From assembly GCA_947626395.1 (NCBI GenBank), contig CANQRU010000002.1, positions 1 through 64,000 of the forward strand: 64,000 nt of DNA. The letters run 5' to 3'. Below the pieces are notes generated by a model that had not been told where the DNA came from, did no database searches, and worked only from the letters and a program-made list of their open reading frames with translations. This DNA comes from an uncultured Lachnospiraceae bacterium. GTDB taxonomy: Bacteria; Bacillota; Clostridia; Lachnospirales; Lachnospiraceae. The position numbers and the translations under genes were made by a program. Below, piece by piece: positions 4,402 to 13,179 of this stretch. How positions within the stretch are numbered: position 1 is the stretch's first letter; each line of letters starts with the position of its first letter.

Positions 4402-4590
4402 ATGGAAGCAGTAAAGACTTACAGCAACGAGCAGATCGGAAGCGCCCGTAAACTTATAGACATTCTTATGGGCGTACCGGAAAAGAGGCGCCCCGTAGTA
4501 ACGGCCATCGCTACCGCCTATATTGACGGCGTAGCGGCAGGCGCCCGGATCGCAGAGGACGAGAAGCCGGAGCAGCCCCGGAGGGCATAG
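4402..4590 (+). CDS. First early gene, 62-residue phage protein, unknown
   Basis: This small soluble protein has no motif I recognise. It is the first gene behind the early promoter, where Cro-like, antirepressor or excision proteins often sit. The ATG has GGAG 11 nt upstream. The N-terminal part (about 10-40) looks helical, the C-terminus is charged and rich in Glu and Pro. It lacks a clear helix-turn-helix, so a Cro role is not supported. Confidence 0.6.
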   Translation: MEAVKTYSNEQIGSARKLIDILMGVPEKRRPVVTAIATAYIDGVAAGARIAEDEKPEQPRRA

Positions 4591-4604
4591 GCCCGGCTTC
4601 CACT

Positions 4605-4631
4605 TTCCCCCGCGGCGGCAACGCGGGGGAA
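4605..4631. other. Stable hairpin between early genes
   Basis: TTCCCCCGCG (4605-4614) and CGCGGGGGAA (4622-4631) form a perfect 10-bp stem with a 7-nt loop. There is no U-run, so it may be an attenuator, a processing site or an antitermination element and not a simple terminator. Confidence 0.5.
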
Positions 4632-4705
4632 TAGCACAACGGCAGGCGGCCCGGCAGGCTGCCACATTATAGGACGTTCCGAGCAAACGCCCAGAGAGGA
4701 GAACG

Positions 4706-6181
4706 ATGGAATATAAGGACCTTAAGGCTGGCATAAGCAGCCACCTAAACGCGGCGGCGGAGGACTTCTTTATGGTAGGTTACTTCCTTCGCCAGATCAG
4801 CGAAAACGCCCTCTTCACGGAGGACGGCTATAAAAATATTTGGGACTTCGCAAAAGGCGAGTACGGCTTGAGCACTTCCAGCGCGAGCCGGTTTATGGCC
4901 ATAAACGCCCGCTTTTCCATTGACGGCGGCGAGCACATGGCCGAGAAGTACATAGGGATGGGAGTAAGCAAGCTGCAGGAGATGTTGAGCCTTCCCGACG
5001 AGGAGCTGGAGAAGGTAACGAAGGAAACCACGGTCCGCGAGATACGCGCACTGAAGGCCCAGGCTACAAAGCCGCTTTCCTTCTACGGCTTCCCGGCCAC
5101 GAAGCGCTCGGCCGGATCTCTTTTGACGACGCCCGGATGCGGCGAGGGGAAATACGATTGTTTCGCCTGCTGCCGGGATTGCGCCATAAGACAGGAGGAG
5201 CGCTACTGCGTAACCGCGCCGATGGGGAACCCCTTCCCTTGCAGCCAGATGGGAAAATATTTCAAAGTAAATATACAATGCTTGACGCATAAGGACCGGT
5301 GCCAGATATTCCACCCGGAGCTGGCGCCGGTACGGGCCGAGGACAAAGAACCGAGCCCCTGCTGCCTTAATTGCGATATAAAAACCTGTTCCCTTCGTTG
5401 CGACGTCGCAAAGAAAAGGGACGAGCAGGAGCAGAGAGAGCGCGAGGAGGCAGAGCGCCAGAGGCAGCGGGAAGCGGAAGCAGCAGAGCGCCAGAGGCAG
5501 CGCGAAGCAGAGGCCGCAAAGCCGGAGCCGAGCGACGAGGACATCGAGGCACTTTACGACTGGTACGACTTTAAGACCAACGACGCGATCACGGCCGACG
5601 GACTTAAAAAGAAGATGGCCCACGCGGGCGGCGGCGGAGGTTCCCGCCTTAAAGACTACCAGGGCAGCGCCCGCGGCGTCCGGATCAATTACAAGAGGGA
5701 GCTTACATATAGCAAGCTCGCGAAGCGGCTTACGGAGTGCCAGGAGCGACGCCGCCAGGCGGAAGAAAAGGCCCGCCCGGATATTATAGACGCCGATTTC
5801 CGCGAGGTTACGGACGAGCCGGAGGATCTGCAGGAGCAGGCGGCCCAGGAGCAGGCCGAAGCGGCCGCGGACCTTTGCGGGACTTGCGCACACGAAGGCG
5901 AGTGCGCCGGGCGTAAGACCAGCGACACCGGCTGCATGGGTTACGAGGAGGCCGTAGAGGCCGAGATCGTAGAGGCCCAGGAGCAGGAACCGGACCCGGA
6001 CCCGGAGGCCTACACGATCCGCGACGTTAAGGATCGGCTGGACTACTACGAGCAGAACCTGCAGGCGCACCGGGAAGCAGAGGCCCCGATCCAGGTCACC
6101 CGGAAGCAGAGGATCATAAGGGACGCCCTGCGGCTTCTTTACGAGAAATTACAGGAGGAGGCGGCCGCGGATGAAGATTAA
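4706..6181 (+). CDS. Large early phage protein with cysteine clusters, unknown function
   Basis: The 491-residue protein has a helical N-terminal domain (1-120, with LSTSSASRFMAINARFS resembling a DNA-binding helix pair) and then a cysteine-rich region (about 145-240) with repeated CxxC and CxxxC patterns (CFACCRDC, CCLNCDIKTCSLRC) that may bind zinc or an iron-sulfur cluster. A highly charged repeat rich in RQREAEAAE (about 242-275) is probably coiled coil. A second cysteine patch (CGTCAHEGECAGR) lies near 395. It is the first large gene of the early operon. I cannot assign a function; a regulator or a replication accessory protein is possible. The frame contains one of four copies of a 14-bp palindrome (5398-5411). 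Confidence 0.75.
   Translation: MEYKDLKAGISSHLNAAAEDFFMVGYFLRQISENALFTEDGYKNIWDFAKGEYGLSTSSASRFMAINARFSIDGGEHMAEKYIGMGVSKLQEMLSLPDEELEKVTKETTVREIRALKAQATKPLSFYGFPATKRSAGSLLTTPGCGEGKYDCFACCRDCAIRQEERYCVTAPMGNPFPCSQMGKYFKVNIQCLTHKDRCQIFHPELAPVRAEDKEPSPCCLNCDIKTCSLRCDVAKKRDEQEQREREEAERQRQREAEAAERQRQREAEAAKPEPSDEDIEALYDWYDFKTNDAITADGLKKKMAHAGGGGGSRLKDYQGSARGVRINYKRELTYSKLAKRLTECQERRRQAEEKARPDIIDADFREVTDEPEDLQEQAAQEQAEAAADLCGTCAHEGECAGRKTSDTGCMGYEEAVEAEIVEAQEQEPDPDPEAYTIRDVKDRLDYYEQNLQAHREAEAPIQVTRKQRIIRDALRLLYEKLQEEAAADED
5398..5411. repeat. 14-bp palindrome TTGCGACGTCGCAA, copy 1
   Basis: First of four exact copies in the prophage, here inside a coding sequence (encoding RCDVAK). Other copies are at 20993, 27375 and 50295. 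Confidence 0.85.
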
Positions 6182-6374
6182 ACACATACTGGCGGACGGC
6201 CGCCAGCTTGAAACCTTAAAAGGATATACCCTGCCATACAACGGCACGACAGAGACAGCCTACCGCCTTCTGGCGGAGCTTTTGAGAGGGGGTGGAGCAG
6301 TTGAGCAGCAGGAGACGAAGCAGCGCCTGGAGGCGTATAGAGGAGCTGAGACGGCAGAGACGGCGGCGTATTAA
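6171..6374 (+). CDS. Small phage protein, unknown
   Basis: A 67-residue protein starts inside the end of the previous gene (11-nt overlap), with GGAGG 10 nt before the ATG. The N-terminal half (MKIKHILADGRQL) looks like a short beta-rich fold, the C-terminus is helical and overlaps the next gene by 74 nt. No family is recognised. Translational coupling with the gene before it is likely. Confidence 0.55.
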   Translation: MKIKHILADGRQLETLKGYTLPYNGTTETAYRLLAELLRGGGAVEQQETKQRLEAYRGAETAETAAY

Positions 6375-6996
6375 GCGCCTGGTGCTTTCCGGCCTTGCCC
6401 TTGTATTTGTTACGGTTCCGTTTGCAGCCTTCGCCCTTACGCGATCCAGCGCACCGGACCCGCAGCCGGAGACGGCAGGAGCGCCGGATCTGGCGCCCGC
6501 AGACATTACGAGAACCGGCACACAGGCGCCGGAGCTACCAGAGACAGAAGCACCCACAGAGGCCCAGACGGAGCCGGAGACCCGGCAGGCCTCGCGCATA
6601 GCCAGCATGGACTGGGGCGCGGAGGATGCCTACTTATTGGCAAAGATCGCGATGGCCGAGGCCGAGGGCGAGGACACCGAAGGCAAAGCGCTGGTTATTC
6701 TTACGGTACTTAACCGCGTATGGGCGCCGCAGTTCCCCGGCACCATTGAGGCGGTTATAACCCAGCCGGGCGCGTTCACTTCGTACTGGGACGGCCGGTG
6801 GGACCGCGTAGAGCCGAACGAGGACTGCTATAACGCCCTTTACAAAGTACAGGTTGAGCACTGGGACGAGAGCCAGGGCGCCCTGTACTTCGAGCGGAGC
6901 ACCGCAGAGGACACCTGGCACAGCCGGAACCTTGTAAAACTTTTCGACCACGGGAACCACACTTTTTACACGGAAAAGGAGGTGGGGACAAATTGA
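6301..6996 (+). CDS. Membrane-anchored cell wall hydrolase, SleB-like
   Basis: This 231-residue protein has a basic N-terminus, one hydrophobic segment (about 26-48, LVLSGLALVFVTVPFAAFAL), a Pro/Glu/Thr-rich linker, and a C-terminal domain (about 105-225) resembling Hydrolase_2 / SleB cell wall hydrolases: DAYLLAKIAMAEAEGEDTEG has the catalytic Glu of the family, followed by VLNRVW and ITQPGAFTSYW. TTG 6301 is chosen because GAGGGGGTGG lies just upstream; GTG 6292 is the alternative. It is odd that a wall hydrolase lies among early genes, far from the lysis genes. It may act in wall remodelling during the lysogenic or early stage. Confidence 0.75.
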   Translation: MSSRRRSSAWRRIEELRRQRRRRIKRLVLSGLALVFVTVPFAAFALTRSSAPDPQPETAGAPDLAPADITRTGTQAPELPETEAPTEAQTEPETRQASRIASMDWGAEDAYLLAKIAMAEAEGEDTEGKALVILTVLNRVWAPQFPGTIEAVITQPGAFTSYWDGRWDRVEPNEDCYNALYKVQVEHWDESQGALYFERSTAEDTWHSRNLVKLFDHGNHTFYTEKEVGTN

Positions 6997-7376
6997 AGAT
7001 GGCATTAAAGGACGGCCAGGTCCTTATAAAAGAGGCCGATAACAATCAGTTTTTAATAATTAAGAGTTGGAGCAAGATGCGCTGGGACAAGGGGCAGCAG
7101 ATGCTTTACGGACCGGCAGACGCGGAGCTGCTTAATAAGCTGGCCGGGCTTGTAAGACTTCCGGCACCGATTGAGCAGCACCGGCGGCAGCTTAACAGGA
7201 TCGCCCAGGCCGTAGACGCGGAGCGGATGCGCGAGGACCCGAAGCCGCTTTACAAATACCCGGTAAAGATACCGCTTTACAAGCACCAGACCCGCGGGGC
7301 AAATATGGCGCTTATGGTTTTCGGATTGATTGATCCGCCGGAACCGAAGCCGGAAGGGAGCGCCGAGAATGGATAA
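6993..7376 (+). CDS. SNF2-type helicase, N-terminal fragment as a separate gene
   Basis: This 127-residue protein ends with the stretch KIPLYKHQTRGANMALMVFG, which is the HQ (Q-motif-like) region that in SNF2/DEAD-like phage helicases comes directly before the Walker A loop. The frame then stops at 7374. The remaining helicase, beginning with GFGFLFE and MGCGKT, is found 1.5 kb further at 8911-10277. Three genes lie between. The gene therefore looks like the first piece of a split helicase; whether the pieces assemble is unknown. ATG 6993 has AGGAGGTG 8 nt upstream. Confidence 0.7.
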   Translation: MKMALKDGQVLIKEADNNQFLIIKSWSKMRWDKGQQMLYGPADAELLNKLAGLVRLPAPIEQHRRQLNRIAQAVDAERMREDPKPLYKYPVKIPLYKHQTRGANMALMVFGLIDPPEPKPEGSAENG

Positions 7377-7935
7377 ATTAACAGAGGAGGAGCGGGCCTT
7401 TGCGGAGTGCTATCACAATACAATTTATAGTTTTCTTCGGACAAATAAGCTGCCGGTGGACGATTTCTACGACGTAGCGGTCTTCGGATATTTGAGAGCC
7501 GTTAAAAGGTACAGCCGCGAGAAGCAGCTGCAGAAGTACAGTTTTACCACCATAGCCTGGCGGGCCATGTTCGCAGATTGCCACCGAAAAAAGAAGGCCG
7601 ACCGCATCCGGGACGCGCTGATCGCGTTCAGCCTTAACGACACGACGGAGCAGGGGACGGAGTACGGCGAGTTTATAGCGGCCAGCGTTGACAGCTTCCG
7701 CGAGCTTGAGGCCCAAGAGAGCCTGCAGGAGCTTCTGGCGGAGCTTATGCCAGCGCTTACCGACCGGCAGCGCGACCACCTTATAAAAGCCCTTGACGGG
7801 TACAAGCCCAGGGAGATCATGCACGAGCAGCGGGTGCCTATACCGGAGTACCACGCAGACCGGCGGGCCATACAGACAGCGGCCGCGGATATTATACCCA
7901 TTTTCTGCGGGGGGGTACTACGGAGAGCAGCATAG
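7369..7935 (+). CDS. Sigma-70-like phage protein
   Basis: The 188-residue protein resembles sigma factor region 2: LPVDDFYDVAVFGYLRAVKR, then QKYSFTTIAWRAMFADCHRK, the helix that contacts the -10 element in sigma factors. A weaker region-4-like segment follows (about 130-160, LTDRQRDHLIKALDGYKPRE). It could direct RNA polymerase to phage promoters. The ATG has GGGAG 7 nt upstream and overlaps the stop of the helicase fragment by 8 nt. It is one of three genes lying between the helicase pieces. The match is by pattern only, and a role in transcription is inferred. Confidence 0.7.
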   Translation: MDKLTEEERAFAECYHNTIYSFLRTNKLPVDDFYDVAVFGYLRAVKRYSREKQLQKYSFTTIAWRAMFADCHRKKKADRIRDALIAFSLNDTTEQGTEYGEFIAASVDSFRELEAQESLQELLAELMPALTDRQRDHLIKALDGYKPREIMHEQRVPIPEYHADRRAIQTAAADIIPIFCGGVLRRAA

Positions 7936-7974
7936 AAGCAGAGCCATAATATAAAACATTTCCAGGAGGAGCAC

Positions 7975-8379
7975 ATGAAAACAAGGGTAACTTTAGAAAC
8001 AAATACAGGTTTTCGAGTAGAGCGAAACGAGCTGCAGGGCGACGTTGTAGTGGCCGTAGCCTTCACGAAAAGAAACGAGAATTTAACAGAAGCCAGGCTG
8101 GCCGCCATTGGCCCACTTAATAAGGAATTTGTAAGAAACTTCGGAGTGGCCTCCGTTTCCGTACTTGAAAAAGCAATACAGGATCACCCGGAGGAGTCCG
8201 CAACCTTCGCTAAAACCTTCGCGAAGGCGATATGCCAGCAGATTAAAAAGCTGGGCCTTGAGAGCGAGGCGAGCGGCGGACTGGCTGGTGGCCTTAAGGA
8301 ACAGGAAGTAAGCAAGCGCGGCCAGAAGGCGATCCGCAAGGCGGCCGGAGTATTGGCGAAGGGAGGCCGGAACACTTGA
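7975..8379 (+). CDS. Phage protein of unknown function
   Basis: This 134-residue soluble protein has a beta-rich N-terminal half (TRVTLETNTGFRVERNEL, VVVAVAFTKRN) and a helical, Lys-rich C-terminus. I recognise no family. The ATG follows AGGAGG, and the frame overlaps the HNH gene by 4 nt, so they are probably coupled. It lies within the stretch that separates the helicase fragments. Confidence 0.6.
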   Translation: MKTRVTLETNTGFRVERNELQGDVVVAVAFTKRNENLTEARLAAIGPLNKEFVRNFGVASVSVLEKAIQDHPEESATFAKTFAKAICQQIKKLGLESEASGGLAGGLKEQEVSKRGQKAIRKAAGVLAKGGRNT

Positions 8380-8909
8380 AAATAATATGCCAGTATTGCG
8401 GCGCGGAGTTCCAGGCGAAGCCGTCGGCCGTAAAGAAGGGAAAGAAGTATTGCAGTAAGAGCTGTTACGACGCGGCCCAGTTTAAGGGAGTTGTAAAGCC
8501 CTGCGACTACTGCGGGAATCCGGTTAAAATTTCCCCTTCGTTGGTAAAGGAAAGAAACTTTTGCAGTAACGCCTGCCGGTTGGCATGGTTGAGCACTTAC
8601 GCAACGGAGCATCTAAACGTAAAAGGACACAGCGCCGGGCACAAGGCCCCGCACCTTACGGAGCTTAACCGGGAACGCAACCCGAAGCTCGCGCTTGAGC
8701 CGGATGCGGTAAAGCGCGGGACGTATAAGGCGAAGGAACACCGGAGACGAATGGAGGCCATTATAGGCCGGAGGTTAAGGCCGGACGAGGACGTCCACCA
8801 CATAAACGGAATACATGACGATAACCGGCCGGAAAATTTACAGATACTTTCACACACGGAACACATGCGGCTGCATTGGCGGATCGCAAAGGAAAAGGGG
8901 GTGGTCTAA
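8376..8909 (+). CDS. HNH homing-type endonuclease with two zinc ribbons
   Basis: The 177-residue protein starts with two four-cysteine zinc ribbons (ICQYCG with YCSKSCYD, and CDYCGN with FCSNACR), followed by an HNH nuclease domain (about 135-165) with DVHHINGIHDDNRPENL. This arrangement is typical of freestanding HNH homing endonucleases in phages, which nick or cut DNA and mobilise their own gene. It sits directly in front of the second helicase piece and could be responsible for the insertion that split the helicase. TTG 8376 is the start, with GGAGG upstream. Confidence 0.85.
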   Translation: MKIICQYCGAEFQAKPSAVKKGKKYCSKSCYDAAQFKGVVKPCDYCGNPVKISPSLVKERNFCSNACRLAWLSTYATEHLNVKGHSAGHKAPHLTELNRERNPKLALEPDAVKRGTYKAKEHRRRMEAIIGRRLRPDEDVHHINGIHDDNRPENLQILSHTEHMRLHWRIAKEKGVV

Positions 8910-8910
8910 A

Positions 8911-8964
8911 ATGACAAAAAGCGAGATTTCAGTAAAAAAAGGCTTCGGCTTTTTGTTTGAATAG
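8911..8964 (+). CDS. 17-codon frame holding the helicase segment before Walker A
   Basis: ATG 8911 has AAGGGGGTGG 6 nt upstream and encodes a 17-residue peptide ending in KKGFGFLFE, then TAG. In intact phage helicases of this kind the sequence GFGxLFE is followed directly by MGCGKT. Here TAG and two bases separate it from ATG 8967 (TAGTAATG), so the helicase frame is broken by what looks like a 5-nt insertion. Stop and start are close enough for translational reinitiation. Confidence 0.6.
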   Translation: MTKSEISVKKGFGFLFE

Positions 8965-8966
8965 TA

Positions 8967-10277
8967 ATGGGTTGTGGCAAGACATTAACAACAATAGCAG
9001 TAATGGGCGCAGCCTACCAGATGGGAGCCATAAAAAAAGTATTGATTGTAGCGCCGACTTCGGTCTGCAGCGTTTGGCCTAAAGAGTTCGACGAGTACGC
9101 AGACTTTAAATATAACGTAGCGGTCCTTTTGGGCGAGAAGCAGAAGCGGCTGGCGACGCTTCGCAGCCTTGACGCCTTCCCTTTTAAGGCCCTTCGCGTA
9201 GCCGTTATAAACTACGAGAGCACCTGGCGCGAAGGCTTATACGAGGCCCTGCAGGAGTGGGCTCCGGATATGGTTATAGCGGACGAGAGCCAGCGGATCA
9301 AAGAGCCCAGCGCGAAGCAGAGCAAGGCGCTGCACCGGCTCGGCGATATTGCGAAGTATAAACTTATTCTTTCCGGGACGCCGATCCAGAATAACGCTAT
9401 TGATTTATTTTCACAGTACAGATTTTTAGACCCTACGGTCTTCGGAACGAATTTTTACGCTTTCCGCAGCCGGTACGCCATTATGGGCGGCTTTGACCGG
9501 CGCCAGATCGTAGGCTACAAAGACCTTGACAAGCTGATCCAGAAAGAGCACTCCATCGCGTACCGGGTAACAAAGGACGAGGCCCTGGACCTACCGGAGC
9601 AGACTTTTCTAAACCGGTATATCCCACTTGAGGGCGCGGCTAAAAACCTTTACGACCGTATAAAGCGGGACAGCTTCGCGGAGCTGGAGAACGGCGGCCA
9701 GATCACGGCGCCGACCGTTCTTACAAAGCTATTACGCCTGCAACAGTTTACAGGAGGTTTTATACAGGCCGACGAAGGCACCCGGCCGGAGCTTGTCTTT
9801 AAGGGCAAGATCGACGCCCTGGGGGATATATTGGACGATTACGTCATAGACGCCGGGAAAAAGCTGGTTATTTTCTGCCGGTTCCGGCCGGAAATAGACC
9901 TTATAGGCGAGGCCCTTAAAAAGCGCCGGATCAAGTACGCGGCCATCTTCGGAGACATTAAGATCGAGGATCGCGGGCCGATTGTAGCGGACTTCCAGAG
10001 CAACCCGGAAACGAAGGTATTCCTGGCCCAGATCGACACGGCCGGGCTGGGTATAACCTTAACGGCAGCAGATACCTGCGTTTATTACAGCGTAAATTTT
10101 AACTACGCGGCATACAGCCAGAGCCTGGCCCGTATTCACAGGATCGGCCAGCGGAACGCCTGCACCTACATTCATTTAGTAGTTGAGAAAAGCATAGACG
10201 AGACGGTCTTAAAGGCGCTGGCCCGGAAAGAGGACCTGGCGAAAACGGTCGTTGACGATTGGAGGCAGTATTTTTGA
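8967..10277 (+). CDS. SNF2-type DNA helicase/ATPase, C-terminal main piece
   Basis: The 436-residue protein begins exactly at the Walker A loop (MGCGKT, residues 1-6). It continues with VLIVAPTSVCSVWPKEF (motif Ia), ADESQRIK (DExx box, about 105-112), LSGTPIQNN (motif III, about 135-143) and ends with ITLTAADTCVYYSVNF and RIHRIGQRN (motifs V and VI). It is an ATP-driven superfamily 2 translocase probably acting in phage replication or recombination. The HQ motif is on the separate protein 6993-7376, and the residues normally before Walker A are in 8911-8964. With no ribosome binding site of its own it probably depends on coupling to 8911. Activity of the split form is uncertain. Confidence 0.88.
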   Translation: MGCGKTLTTIAVMGAAYQMGAIKKVLIVAPTSVCSVWPKEFDEYADFKYNVAVLLGEKQKRLATLRSLDAFPFKALRVAVINYESTWREGLYEALQEWAPDMVIADESQRIKEPSAKQSKALHRLGDIAKYKLILSGTPIQNNAIDLFSQYRFLDPTVFGTNFYAFRSRYAIMGGFDRRQIVGYKDLDKLIQKEHSIAYRVTKDEALDLPEQTFLNRYIPLEGAAKNLYDRIKRDSFAELENGGQITAPTVLTKLLRLQQFTGGFIQADEGTRPELVFKGKIDALGDILDDYVIDAGKKLVIFCRFRPEIDLIGEALKKRRIKYAAIFGDIKIEDRGPIVADFQSNPETKVFLAQIDTAGLGITLTAADTCVYYSVNFNYAAYSQSLARIHRIGQRNACTYIHLVVEKSIDETVLKALARKEDLAKTVVDDWRQYF

Positions 10278-10540
10278 AAACTTTTGCAATTATTCATTAC
10301 AGCGAAGATTTTGTAAATTGCGTAGGAATTACGACCGATTACCACAAGGCCGTCGGTATTGCCTACGACTACGCCTGCGAGCTTATAGAGGACGACGGCG
10401 AAGATGGAACCATATCGCCCCTTTATGAGCTTAACGGACAAACCGGCCTGGGCTTAACGGTTCGGAGCAGAGACAGGATAACAATTATAGCCCGCATATT
10501 TATTTTGAGCCATGAGGCCGAGGAGGGAAAAGACAGGTGA
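10274..10540 (+). CDS. Small phage protein, unknown
   Basis: An 88-residue acidic protein starts at TTG 10274 with GGAGG 9 nt upstream, overlapping the helicase stop by 4 nt. It has alternating beta and helical segments (AIIHYSEDFVNCVGI, AVGIAYDYACELIEDD). No family is recognised. Position suggests co-translation with the helicase. Confidence 0.55.
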   Translation: MKTFAIIHYSEDFVNCVGITTDYHKAVGIAYDYACELIEDDGEDGTISPLYELNGQTGLGLTVRSRDRITIIARIFILSHEAEEGKDR

Positions 10541-10746
10541 ACATAGAGAGCGCATACGCAAAAGTAAACAGGAACCTGGACGGAAAAGGGCGGCTTATTC
10601 TTCCGAAGGATCTGCGGGAGGCGGCCGGGTGGATGCCGGACGAGCCGGTCGAGGTTGGGCTTGTAAAGGTTGGCGGCAGAAAAGCGATGCTTATTATAGC
10701 AGCCTTTACGGACGATCCAGAGATAGACCCCAGCGCCGGGGAATAG
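10537..10746 (+). CDS. AbrB/SpoVT-like transition-state regulator domain protein
   Basis: This 69-residue protein has the swapped-hairpin AbrB pattern: VNRNLDGKGRLILPKDLREA followed by hydrophobic strands VEVGLVKVGGRKAMLII. Such proteins bind DNA as dimers and often act as antitoxins or regulators. GTG 10537 overlaps the previous gene by 4 nt. A second AbrB-like gene is at 50101-50274. No toxin partner is seen beside it. Confidence 0.65.
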   Translation: MNIESAYAKVNRNLDGKGRLILPKDLREAAGWMPDEPVEVGLVKVGGRKAMLIIAAFTDDPEIDPSAGE

Positions 10747-10784
10747 GCGATCACATAGAAAAAGCCAGGAAGGAGGTAAAGGCC

Positions 10785-11135
10785 ATGAAGCAGACCGAGC
10801 AAAGGCCAGTTTGTAGGGATTGCCGCTACATGGAGCCGGAGAACCACAGGAACGGCAGGAACATTTTTTATTGCAGCCACCCGGAAGCGAAAACCGAGTG
10901 CCTGCCGCAGCGGATCATCACCCGGAGCAGGAGCGACACGATCCCGACAAAGACAGCACCGAAGCGGTGCCCGCTTACGCCGGAGGACCACCCGTCAAAA
11001 AACCATTGTAAAAATTGCGAGTACGCGGACGGCTACGGCGGCCTCGACGGCTTCACCTGCAGAGCAAAGCGGGAAGGCATACGGGGCGAACAGTACGGCT
11101 GTAATTATTTCAGCCAGAGAAAAAAGGAGGACTAA
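10785..11135 (+). CDS. Cysteine-rich zinc-finger phage protein
   Basis: A 116-residue protein with AGGAGG 9 nt before the ATG. It carries CRDCRYME and FYCSHPEAKTEC in the N-terminal half and CKNCEYADG with FTCRAKREG and YGCNYF in the C-terminal half, so it probably forms two zinc-binding knuckles. No catalytic motif is seen. It may be a nucleic-acid-binding accessory protein. Confidence 0.65.
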   Translation: MKQTEQRPVCRDCRYMEPENHRNGRNIFYCSHPEAKTECLPQRIITRSRSDTIPTKTAPKRCPLTPEDHPSKNHCKNCEYADGYGGLDGFTCRAKREGIRGEQYGCNYFSQRKKED

Positions 11136-11137
11136 AA

Positions 11138-11581
11138 GTGAGCGATATTTTTACATTGATTGACAACTACAAAGAGCTGCTGGACGAGAAGGACCGGCTT
11201 AAGGACGCCACGACGGAAAACAATAAAGCCCTTGAGGACGCCCGGAAAGAGCTGGCCCAGGCCATGATCGACGCGGAGAGCCCGAAGGTAAGCCGTAACG
11301 GTTTTCTTTACAGCTTGCAGGATAAGACCCGGTACAGCAAGATCGGCGGGTGCGACGAGGAGGCCTTTTTTGCCACCCTTGAGGAGAACGGGCTCGGCGA
11401 CATTATTAAGCGGACGGTCAACGCCCAGACGCTGCAGGGCGCGATGGCCGCAGCAGCCGAGGAGAACGACGGGGAGCTGCCGGAGGAGTACGAGGACTAT
11501 ATAAACGTCTACCAGTATTACGACGTACAGAAGCGCCGGGAAACCAACAAAGCAGCGAAGAACGCAAAGAAGGGAGCTTAA
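11138..11581 (+). CDS. Coiled-coil early phage protein, unknown
   Basis: The 147-residue protein begins with a predicted coiled coil (about 1-48, IDNYKELLDEKDRLKDATTE) and ends in a Lys-rich tail. In size and layout it resembles Gp157-like and other early phage coiled-coil proteins, but I see no diagnostic motif. GTG 11138 has AAGGAGG upstream. It lies in a run of genes leading to the putative SSB, so a recombination or replication role is possible. Confidence 0.6.
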   Translation: MSDIFTLIDNYKELLDEKDRLKDATTENNKALEDARKELAQAMIDAESPKVSRNGFLYSLQDKTRYSKIGGCDEEAFFATLEENGLGDIIKRTVNAQTLQGAMAAAAEENDGELPEEYEDYINVYQYYDVQKRRETNKAAKNAKKGA

Positions 11582-11585
11582 AAGC

Positions 11586-12026
11586 ATGGAAGGACAGTAC
11601 GAGCTGGATCTGCGCTTAGACTACGAGCGCGACTTAAAGACCAACTTAACCCAGGTTATACACTTCGCCGGGGAGCAGCGGAAGCACGACCTGGAGGAGA
11701 ACGGGCGCCCGCTTCGCCGGGTAGAGAGCACACAAGAGGGCTACGGGATCGCGGCCCAGGCCTTCGTAAAGGTCACCGGTAAACACAAGATATTAAAGGG
11801 CCAGATGGACGACTTTCTGAAACTTTTGGACGCCGGAGACGACGCCGCCAGCATCGCCGGGCAGATTTACAACGCCTGCCTGGAGCTTTCCACGGAGTCA
11901 ACGCTTATGGCGGCAGAGGCCGAGCGGATATTAAAGGACCTTTATTACACGACGCCGAGGACGCCGCTGGAGGAGTTCCAGGACGCCGAGGCCGAGGACT
12001 ACGACGGAGAGGAGGACCAGGAGTAA
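11586..12026 (+). CDS. Early phage protein, unknown
   Basis: A 146-residue acidic, largely helical protein with a C-terminal tail rich in Asp and Glu (AEAEDYDGEEDQE). No family is recognised. It is followed without gap by the next gene (TAA then ATG), so the group 11138-13179 is likely one translational block. Confidence 0.6.
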   Translation: MEGQYELDLRLDYERDLKTNLTQVIHFAGEQRKHDLEENGRPLRRVESTQEGYGIAAQAFVKVTGKHKILKGQMDDFLKLLDAGDDAASIAGQIYNACLELSTESTLMAAEAERILKDLYYTTPRTPLEEFQDAEAEDYDGEEDQE

Positions 12027-12365
12027 ATGGCAGGAGTAGGAGTGCAGGAAAAGAAGATCGTAACCGTTACCACGACGGACGGCCAGACGATAAACAGCGG
12101 AGATATTTTGGCGTTGAGCATTAAGGGGCAGGACATTGTCTGCAGGTTTTCAAAGTTGGATAATAACAGCTATTTTGAAACTTTCCCGCTGATCAGCAGC
12201 GGAGGGAAAACGCCGGTAAGATACCGGCTGCAGAGCATTGTGACCTGCTTTAAGGTTAAGAGCTTCGAGGTAGACGCCACGGAACAGGCACTGAAGGAAG
12301 CGGCGAAGGCCGCAGCGGATCACGCCGACCAGGACACGCTGGCACCGGCGACAGAAGCAGAGTAA
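12027..12365 (+). CDS. Early phage protein, unknown
   Basis: A 112-residue protein with a beta-rich core (KIVTVTTTDGQTINSGDILAL, QDIVCRFSKLDN) and a helical Ala-rich acidic tail. It starts at the ATG right after the previous stop, with CCAGGAG just upstream. I recognise no family. Its place just before the putative SSB suggests a nucleic acid role, without proof. Confidence 0.55.
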   Translation: MAGVGVQEKKIVTVTTTDGQTINSGDILALSIKGQDIVCRFSKLDNNSYFETFPLISSGGKTPVRYRLQSIVTCFKVKSFEVDATEQALKEAAKAAADHADQDTLAPATEAE

Positions 12366-12381
12366 AGAGGAGGACACCATA

Positions 12382-13179
12382 ATGGCAAAGAACGAATTAA
12401 CAGTAACGGCGGAGAAATTTAACCTTGTTACCTTGACCGGCGACCTTGCGGAAGCCGTAGCGGAGGAGATGGACGGCCTCGGCTCTATTCCCTTCGACCG
12501 CGTAAAGATACCTTCCGGCGGCGGCCTTGCCTTTGAGCTTCCGGGCGACACCGAGGAGGACACGGAGAGCGCCACGGAGCTGATCGGCGTTATTTTGGAC
12601 CATAACCCCGTAAACGCCTACTGGGCGGAGAAGTTCAGCGGCGGGAACGAGCAGCCGGACTGCAGCAGCTACGACGGGAAGCAGGGCGTCGTAAGAGCGA
12701 CCGGCGAGATCAGAAGCTGCGAAACTTGCCCTTATAACCGGTTCGGAAGCGACGGAGCCGGGAAGGCCTGCAAGAACGTCCACCGCGTTTATATTTTGCG
12801 GGAGAATAACCCGGTGCCGCTTGTTTTGAGCCTTCCGCCGACCAGCCTTAAATATATGCGGGACTACATCGGGAAGCGGGTACTTCTTAAAGGGTTCCGG
12901 TGCTGGCAGGTCTTAACGAAGATTACGCTTAAGAAGGAAAAGAGCCGCGACGGCATCACTTACAGCCGGGCCGTCTTCGCGTTCCTTGACAAGTTGAGCC
13001 CGGAGCAGGCCCAGATGGCGGCGGCCATGCGCGAGGTAGTAAAGGCGACTTCCCGGCAGATCGACATCGCCGACGACTACCAGGCAGGCCCGGCCGCCGA
13101 TCCGGCAGCACCGAAGGCGGGCCCGGACGGCTTTATGAACGTACCGGAAGGATCGGACGAGGAGCTGCCCTTTAATTAA
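12382..13179 (+). CDS. Putative single-stranded DNA-binding protein
   Basis: This 265-residue protein has a beta-rich core (about 80-215) with a cysteine cluster (CSSYDGK, IRSCETCPYNRFGSDGAGKAC) and an acidic C-terminus, EGSDEELPFN, that copies the DxxxPF tip by which bacterial SSB proteins recruit partners. It lies two genes before the primase/helicase, whose own C-terminus ends in QEELPF. I therefore infer an SSB-like role in replication. It does not look like a canonical 110-residue OB-fold SSB, and the cysteines suggest bound zinc. AGGAGG precedes the ATG. Confidence 0.6.
   Translation: MAKNELTVTAEKFNLVTLTGDLAEAVAEEMDGLGSIPFDRVKIPSGGGLAFELPGDTEEDTESATELIGVILDHNPVNAYWAEKFSGGNEQPDCSSYDGKQGVVRATGEIRSCETCPYNRFGSDGAGKACKNVHRVYILRENNPVPLVLSLPPTSLKYMRDYIGKRVLLKGFRCWQVLTKITLKKEKSRDGITYSRAVFAFLDKLSPEQAQMAAAMREVVKATSRQIDIADDYQAGPAADPAAPKAGPDGFMNVPEGSDEELPFN

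Follow-up and report, generated by a model that had tools for sequence, protein, structure and literature searches.

The locus examined here raises the question of how an enzyme gene that is interrupted twice, the second time at the edge of its Walker A motif, could still yield a working protein. It lies in a 64,000-nucleotide (nt) stretch of contig CANQRU010000002.1 from an uncultured Lachnospiraceae bacterium, referred to as a whole as the window, in which a SNF2-type helicase is present in pieces around a sigma-like gene and an HNH endonuclease gene (Table 1). A first-pass annotation had described this arrangement, and its coordinates and domains are borne out here. The second interruption is a 5-nt insert, TAGTA, between GFGFLFE and MGCGKT. 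We consider it reasonably probable that the locus belongs to a class of homing cassettes in which micro-inserts shield the cut site and are tolerated since ribosomes bypass them. The wider pattern behind this reading goes beyond the first-pass annotation: stop-first inserts recur at this site, the codons flanking them are matched, and the inserts are linked to HNH genes.

That the two breaks are separate events, as had been proposed, is supported by relatives of both kinds. Over residues 1-111, the N-terminal piece (N piece) shares 51% identity with the beginning of the one-frame helicase at locus L187. It also matches the one-frame helicases of L140, L137, L188, L023 and L117; the split separates parts that are undivided in these homologues. 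In L187 the N part, GFGxLFE and the P-loop form one frame; this is the comparison with an intact homologue for which the first-pass annotation had called, and the existence of one-frame relatives means that the protein encoded from 6993 is not always separate from the helicase. At least 100 residues lie ahead of the Walker lysine in the same frame in 18 of 128 intact loci. Among named phages, THSA-485A has a one-frame SNF2 gene, and the annotated SNF2 gene of FP_Epona starts 10 codons ahead of the matched region. The relative L097, with a core 99% identical to that of the window, has neither TAGTA nor the HNH gene; DNA identity between the two is 92.8% upstream, ends near the start of the HNH stretch and resumes at 96% beside the P-loop. 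In L097 the N piece, the sigma-like gene and a divergent version of the unknown gene are already set apart from the core, so the HNH gene and TAGTA look like one later unit. The proposed separation by inserted sigma-like, unknown and HNH genes thus stands, with its order refined, and the split between N piece and core is probably a separate, older event.

The same distinction applies to the suggestion that the pieces work as split subunits. In an AlphaFold2 model of the L187 protein (17 alignment rows, mean predicted local distance difference test score 84), the N-piece break falls in a loop (about residues 110-123) after the HQ helix 97-109, which makes a role of the N piece as a subunit plausible; it probably acts as a separate one. 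GFGLLFE forms a core strand (124-130) directly ahead of the P-loop, and a break between strand and P-loop would, judging by the model, hardly be workable in this way; split subunits are a poor account of the 5-nt break.

To place this break among relatives, loci were gathered by profile scans, a genome search and three pattern scans; most pattern-scan loci were chance matches without this helicase and were left out of the counts. A readable P-loop is present in 193 loci, of which 65 have an insert and 128 do not. Some contigs were reached by two scans; dereplication, which merges identical states at 97% identity, gave 141 relatives. We found inserts in 42 of the 141, all within the same 11 codons of the P-loop and at codon boundaries, so the insert in the window is more than chance or a sequencing slip; sequencing error as its source is ruled out by the many different alleles at the same codons. 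In the profile scans alone, 32 of 131 representatives have an insert. The 40 distinct alleles, which include two from pattern matches without a full core (L060, L071), are 4 to 16 nt long, plus one of 44 nt, and fall within FE-MGCGKT between E and M (E/M, 15 alleles), between M and G (M/G, 1), between MG and C or T (MG/C, 15) and between CG and K (CG/K, 9); L059 and L093 have two inserts each. On the tree the insert state changes 31 times, with at least 22 changes forced by starred branches. The relatives belong to a family of phages of gut bacteria, and the insert-bearing L124, L151, L160, L171 and L174 among them are recorded as isolate or finished genomes.

These counts need to be interpreted with some caution, as 10 of the 42 insert representatives bear locus identifiers from insert-directed scans, and as the alleles are not all independent (e.g. 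TGATAGGGT/TGATAGGGA and TGACCCGGC/TGACCCGGT), so that the P-values below overstate the strength somewhat. Apparent inserts in the diverged L152, L155, L201, L202, L206, L207, L211, L220, L221, L222 and L225 proved spurious, these loci being intact. L127 was left out because no GFG leader was found; in L127:1-1890 a NUMOD4/HNH double protein lies upstream, the GFGxLFE leader is lacking and ATGGGATGT comes after an unrelated frame. L011 was left out as well, its upstream part reading as an inverted copy of the helicase start (L011:1-120), probably an assembly or amplification chimera.

The inserts share a design. An in-frame stop comes first in 36 of the 40 alleles, against a mean of 2.9 when the letters are shuffled (none of 20000 shuffles as high), and no allele (0/40) has an in-frame stop at either of the next two offsets. 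The 36 first stops are UGA (19), UAG (16) and UAA (1), whereas among 1188 ordinary stops of these loci UAA makes up 45% (P = 1e-8). A C at position +4, which makes a stop weak, follows in 18 of 22 longer alleles, compared with 204 of the 1188 ordinary stops (17%; P = 6e-11). The far end of the insert is matched to the codon directly ahead of it, the proposed take-off codon: among 25 alleles of at least 6 nt, the last triplet, or proposed landing codon, is synonymous with the take-off codon in 19 (shuffle mean 1.7; 0/20000 as high), and triplets ending 1, 2 and 3 nt earlier are synonymous in 3, 0 and 0. Nine of the 19 repeat the take-off codon itself and 10 are only synonymous with it, a mix that speaks for matching of codons rather than simple duplication of DNA. 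Over all 40 alleles, the landing triplet is compatible at two or three positions in 38; most of the non-synonymous triplets are near-cognate. In the CG/K alleles of L146 and L151, take-off codon and last triplet covary in the third base (GGT...AGT, GGC...AGC) despite a synonymous divergence (dS) of 2.3.

A strong Shine-Dalgarno sequence stands ahead of the leader start in 37 of 42 insert-bearing leaders, and the starts so led in relatives lie mostly 4-14 codons ahead of GFG. "ERGVI/GVV" peptides ahead of the leaders in L118 and L064, considered as HNH remnants, are the Shine-Dalgarno sequence read as codons. The longest insert, of 44 nt, lies between GGT and TGC in L184 (3955-4010), with TGA after the first GGT and a second GGT at its end; this region folds into a long hairpin that includes the take-off codon (z = -4.7), and is the form closest to gene 60 of phage T4. 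L093:1440-1530 (and L129, with the same alleles) has two inserts in one P-loop that are complementary to flanking helicase DNA and form nested hairpins, which suggests a template-switch origin or selected structure.

The association with the HNH gene was assessed in 138 representatives with at least 600 nt of upstream sequence. Insert-bearing representatives have an HNH gene of the window's family immediately upstream in 17 of 40 cases, insert-free ones in 6 of 98 (P = 1.1e-6). Because part of the insert set came from insert-directed scans, we repeated the comparison on profile-scan loci only, with a similar outcome (12 of 30 versus 6 of 98; P = 2.6e-5), and among GCGK-type profile-scan representatives the counts are 8 of 25 versus 0 of 62. 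In independent pairs the insert goes with HNH about nine times and the reverse practically never. The HNH tree also tracks the insert site, with 9 label changes against 14.9 in shuffles (0/200 as low): the window, L124, L186 and L192, all E/M, form a starred clade, and the other large clade comprises mostly MG/C and CG/K sites.

Close pairs with and without an insert were compared as well. L178 equals L139 plus an HNH gene and TAGC. Divergence is concentrated near the P-loop between the window and L097 (19/123 near versus 34/1206 elsewhere) and between L178 and L139 (25/123 versus 7/1086), and is also significant in L027/L030 and L169/L175. In the window the tract differs from L097 at 9 of 33 nt around the P-loop, at 10 of the next 30 and then at 0 of 60. 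This near-P-loop divergence, together with the presence and absence of HNH, fits homing with co-conversion. The window's HNH gene (Pfam HNH_3, E = 8.8e-8; phrog_1271, E = 2.6e-19) stands beside its presumed target gene, outside any intron or intein, and shows presence/absence polymorphism with co-conversion; it is a probable free-standing homing endonuclease. A group I intron or intein at the interruption was rejected, as 5 nt is too short for either; in a search for group I introns and other known RNAs, Rfam gave no match at E 0.1 for window positions 4500-12500 or, at gathering score, for five relatives. In L182, L178 and L139, a Myb/SANT-like DNA-binding protein (311-315 residues; Pfam basis for L182 only) is encoded directly upstream of the HNH or helicase gene.

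On the reading we favour, then, the window would carry a homing cassette made up of the free-standing HNH gene just upstream of the helicase leader and a micro-insert at a nearby site, the Walker A motif DNA, that the endonuclease presumably recognises. TAGTA would change this recognition site and so spare the cassette-bearing genome, and would at the same time bring an in-frame stop and a frame change into the enzyme's active site. Ribosomes would start at the leader AUG behind its Shine-Dalgarno sequence, pause about 12-25 codons later at the weak stop, release the P-site codon and pair again, after a gap of 4-44 nt (5 nt in the window), with a landing triplet cognate or near-cognate to the same tRNA; ...FE-MGCGKT would be restored and the gene would stay functional. 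This reading draws on confinement to the P-loop, stop-first inserts, weak-stop context, matched landing codons, HNH association, divergent tracts and purifying selection, each of which was computed. That near-minimal hops (4-16 nt, once 44) have evolved repeatedly and are carried by HNH cassettes as active-site target immunity has, in our estimation, slightly more than an even chance of being right, and so, as part of the same joint reading, has the view that a near-minimal hop consists of a weak stop (UGA or UAG, mostly then C) and a landing codon for the same tRNA. For the window taken alone we put bypass at about one half, since GUA is an imperfect landing triplet and an AUG adjoins it.

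A number of observations weigh against this reading. The landing triplet of the window, GTA, is not synonymous with its take-off codon GAA, and 16 of the 40 alleles have no synonymous landing codon (the window, L027, L034/L118, L203, L032, L160, L072, L168, L286, L314 and six CG/K alleles); those ending in GTT (L027; L034/L118) match at one position only. Four alleles (L120, L131, L136 and L128) do not open with a stop. RNA folding of the window insert is unremarkable (z = 0.3 and 0.0), and the case for structure as a general requirement is weak (mean z = -0.98 over 24 tests), although it is real for L184. A nascent-peptide signal of the T4 type, 25-30 residues ahead of the P site, is lacking, as the leaders are only about 12-25 codons long (17 in the window). 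The divergent tract near the P-loop is significant in only four of eight insert/intact pairs, and not in L072/L189, L203/L133, L120/L119 or L128/L130. As 23 of the 40 insert representatives have no adjoining intact HNH gene of the window's family, loss of HNH must be assumed; two of these 23 have only a remnant-like HNH match, and L108 and L136 (and the dropped L127) have NUMOD4-type endonucleases instead. Conversely, six intact representatives have HNH without an insert, and L175, a neighbour of the insert-bearing L171, is intact with HNH, so HNH does not require the insert. Finally, cleavage of the P-loop DNA by the HNH enzyme, protection by the insert and the bypass itself are steps that we infer. 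In L027, the peptide SHWQLAKERGVV ahead of the leader resembles an HNH-family C-terminus, a possible remnant of a lost endonuclease beside a kept insert.

The best-surviving alternative is termination-reinitiation, in which ribosomes would end at the leader TAG and restart at the AUG 2 nt on, making MGCGKT... a separate protein with or without the 17-residue peptide. An AUG follows the insert in the window and in all 15 E/M alleles, seven of which lack a Glu landing codon, and stop and start are near enough for coupling. However, no Shine-Dalgarno sequence is seen ahead of the inner AUG in the window, the product would lack the core strand that precedes the P-loop in the L187 model, and GFGxLFE or its counterparts are kept in 41 different DNA spellings. 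Because the inserts of relatives with M/G, MG/C and CG/K sites sit inside the P-loop, a restart there cannot give a protein with the Walker lysine: the first in-frame ATG, GTG or TTG lies 2-31 residues past it in all 25 of these alleles (25 of the 40), yet the genes are conserved alike. We regard reinitiation as unlikely for the class as a whole; in the window alone it has rather better prospects, while remaining doubtful.

Dead alleles, that is, broken helicase genes left behind by endonuclease attack and faulty repair and now being lost, appear improbable. The existence of close pairs with and without an insert does indicate that many inserts are young, and the helicase may be dispensable in the prophage state. 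Against this, the ratio of nonsynonymous to synonymous divergence (dN/dS) is 0.04-0.10 in seven pairs in which both members have inserts, at dS up to 2.7 (for example 2.3 in L146/L151 and 1.0 in L122/L123), similar to the 0.03-0.08 of five intact pairs; the insert-bearing helicase genes stay under purifying selection. The frame is open to the normal stop in every insert locus not ended by its contig, and no frame break was found in the remaining core of the 65 insert and 128 intact loci, three short ones in each group ending with their contigs. Stop-first inserts, weak stops and matched landing codons would also be unexpected from random damage. Two further possibilities were rejected: a second helicase copy in the genome, the only candidate for which is a 31%-identical SNF2 protein, and a suppressor tRNA encoded in the window, which has no tRNA gene.

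Stop-codon readthrough or a simple +1 or -1 frameshift, with no hop, is more improbable still. Ten of the 40 lengths are divisible by 3, so that readthrough would restore the frame with extra residues, and a +1 shift could carry the ribosome through 4-nt alleles such as TGAA or TGAC; but the other 30 lengths are not divisible by 3, the longest insert reaches 44 nt, the extra residues would land inside the P-loop, L004 and L009 have two consecutive stops, and neither process predicts a matched last codon. Least probable of all, by a small step, are DNA scars with target duplication (a staggered cut, fill-in and a few added bases, the codon match being a repair by-product and translation being rescued otherwise or never), for although in nine of the 25 longer alleles the codons on the two sides are identical and some inserts (L184, L093) contain inverted copies of flanking DNA, the 10 further alleles are synonymous without being identical, the match is in codon phase, and DNA repair cannot prefer UGA or UAG followed by C.

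Known systems offer partial parallels. In phage T4, gene 39 is split by mobA and open reading frame (ORF) 60.1, and in gene 60 two matched GGA codons, the first of them followed by a stop, enclose a gap of 50 nt that is possibly protective against cleavage (PMC5009743, PMC3014915). As in the window, a gene for an enzyme of DNA metabolism is in two parts with an HNH homing endonuclease and another ORF between them (PMC5009743, PMC3014915, PMC2988022), and in the downstream part a short insert, untranslated in T4, starts with a stop that directly follows the take-off codon (GAA-UAG in the window). The present case works like T4 gene 60 in outline, but the window fails two features, the stem-loop and the nascent peptide. 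The differences are that the T4 gene encodes a topoisomerase and the interrupted sequence here is the P-loop of a SNF2 helicase; that inserts here are 4-16 nt (one 44) rather than 50 nt, at several codon boundaries and of many origins; that they mostly have no clear stem-loop, the take-off stem-loop being absent in the window; and that bypass here is read from sequence. The kinetics of T4 bypass are treated in PMC11194080. Nicking of the target is known for HNH Mob enzymes, co-conversion accompanies homing, and endonuclease sites often fall in DNA that codes for active-site residues (PMC2988022). In Aeh1 nrdA/mobE, likewise, an HNH homing endonuclease interrupts a critical region of an enzyme gene, the pieces of which assemble; the available text of PMC2988022 mentions no micro-insert or recoding for it, and the parallel fits only the split between N piece and core. 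The byp elements of Magnusiomyces capitatus mitochondria comprise 81 cases, some with imperfect matches (cited in PMC5009743); they belong to mitochondrial ribosomes with relaxed decoding in a single mitochondrial genome, in contrast to bacterial ribosomes, one gene and one 11-codon stretch in many phages here. In synthetic stop-hops in E. coli (Weiss et al. 1987, cited in PMC5009743), matched codons around a stop reportedly permit a hop; those were laboratory constructs, whereas the present alleles are natural and have other gap lengths. Counterparts of T4 gene 60, perhaps with shorter gaps, have long been presumed, and only weak candidates are mentioned in the available parts of PMC5009743 and PMC3014915. 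Our literature search found no report of such endonuclease-linked stop inserts in a P-loop.

Table 1. Features of the interrupted helicase locus (positions in the window)
Feature	Position	Strand	Basis
N piece of SNF2 helicase (HQ segment at end), 127 residues, own gene	6993-7376	+	ORF list; alignment to one-frame relatives
Sigma-like gene between N piece and core	7369-7935	+	Open frame from TTG 7330; PHROG matches
Unknown gene	7975-8379	+	Divergent homologue in L097
HNH endonuclease, zinc-finger-like N part, HNH_3	8376-8909	+	Pfam, PHROG; absent from L097
Strong Shine-Dalgarno-like stretch AAGGGGGTGGT ahead of leader ATG	8895-8905	+	Sequence
Leader frame MTKSEISVKKGFGFLFE then TAG, 17 codons, ends GFGFLFE; carries core strand ahead of P-loop	8911-8964	+	ORF list
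Short tract diverging from L097, read as co-conversion tract of HNH cassette	8941-9008	+	DNA comparison
GAA, proposed take-off codon	8959-8961	+	Allele table
5-nt insert TAGTA, in-frame UAG plus 2 nt	8962-8966	+	Absent from L097
GTA, proposed landing triplet; near-cognate to, not synonymous with, GAA	8964-8966	+	Allele table
SNF2 helicase core, MGCGKT (Walker A) to end; AUG also a possible reinitiation site	8967-10277	+	Pfam; open to normal stop

The core matches Pfam SNF2-rel_dom (E = 2.9e-31) and Helicase_C (E = 1e-16), and these two domains, with the Walker A, DE-box, SGTP and RIHRxGQ motifs in the alignment, place it among SNF2-family helicases of superfamily 2; its relative in L097 matches solved structures such as 5jxr and 1z63. 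The N piece has no Pfam match, and the unknown gene has no match in Pfam or PHROG. The sigma-like gene matches phrog_37022 (E = 1.1e-14) and phrog_351, RNA polymerase sigma factor (E = 3e-4); a possible ATG start at 7369, overlapping the stop of the N piece, is a small correction to the first-pass annotation. Directly upstream of the N piece lies a cell wall hydrolase gene (Pfam Hydrolase_2, 6292-6996), and downstream of the helicase are genes for a short MraZ-like protein (10537-10746) and a DUF7307 protein (Pam3 gp33-like, 11138-11581); FP_Epona has a Mu Gam-like DNA-end protection gene at the latter place.

T4 gene 60 has been the main case of efficient natural bypassing in phages. The present set offers 40 natural alleles in one gene; several of them come from isolates or finished genomes, and near-twins lacking the insert serve as controls. 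These alleles make it possible to test the minimal length of a hop, the stop contexts and codon mismatches that bacterial ribosomes accept, and whether endonuclease immunity drives recoding. If the reading proposed here is true, homing endonucleases would have a general route into indispensable sequence that needs neither intron nor intein, and T4 gene 60 would be a single, long example of it.

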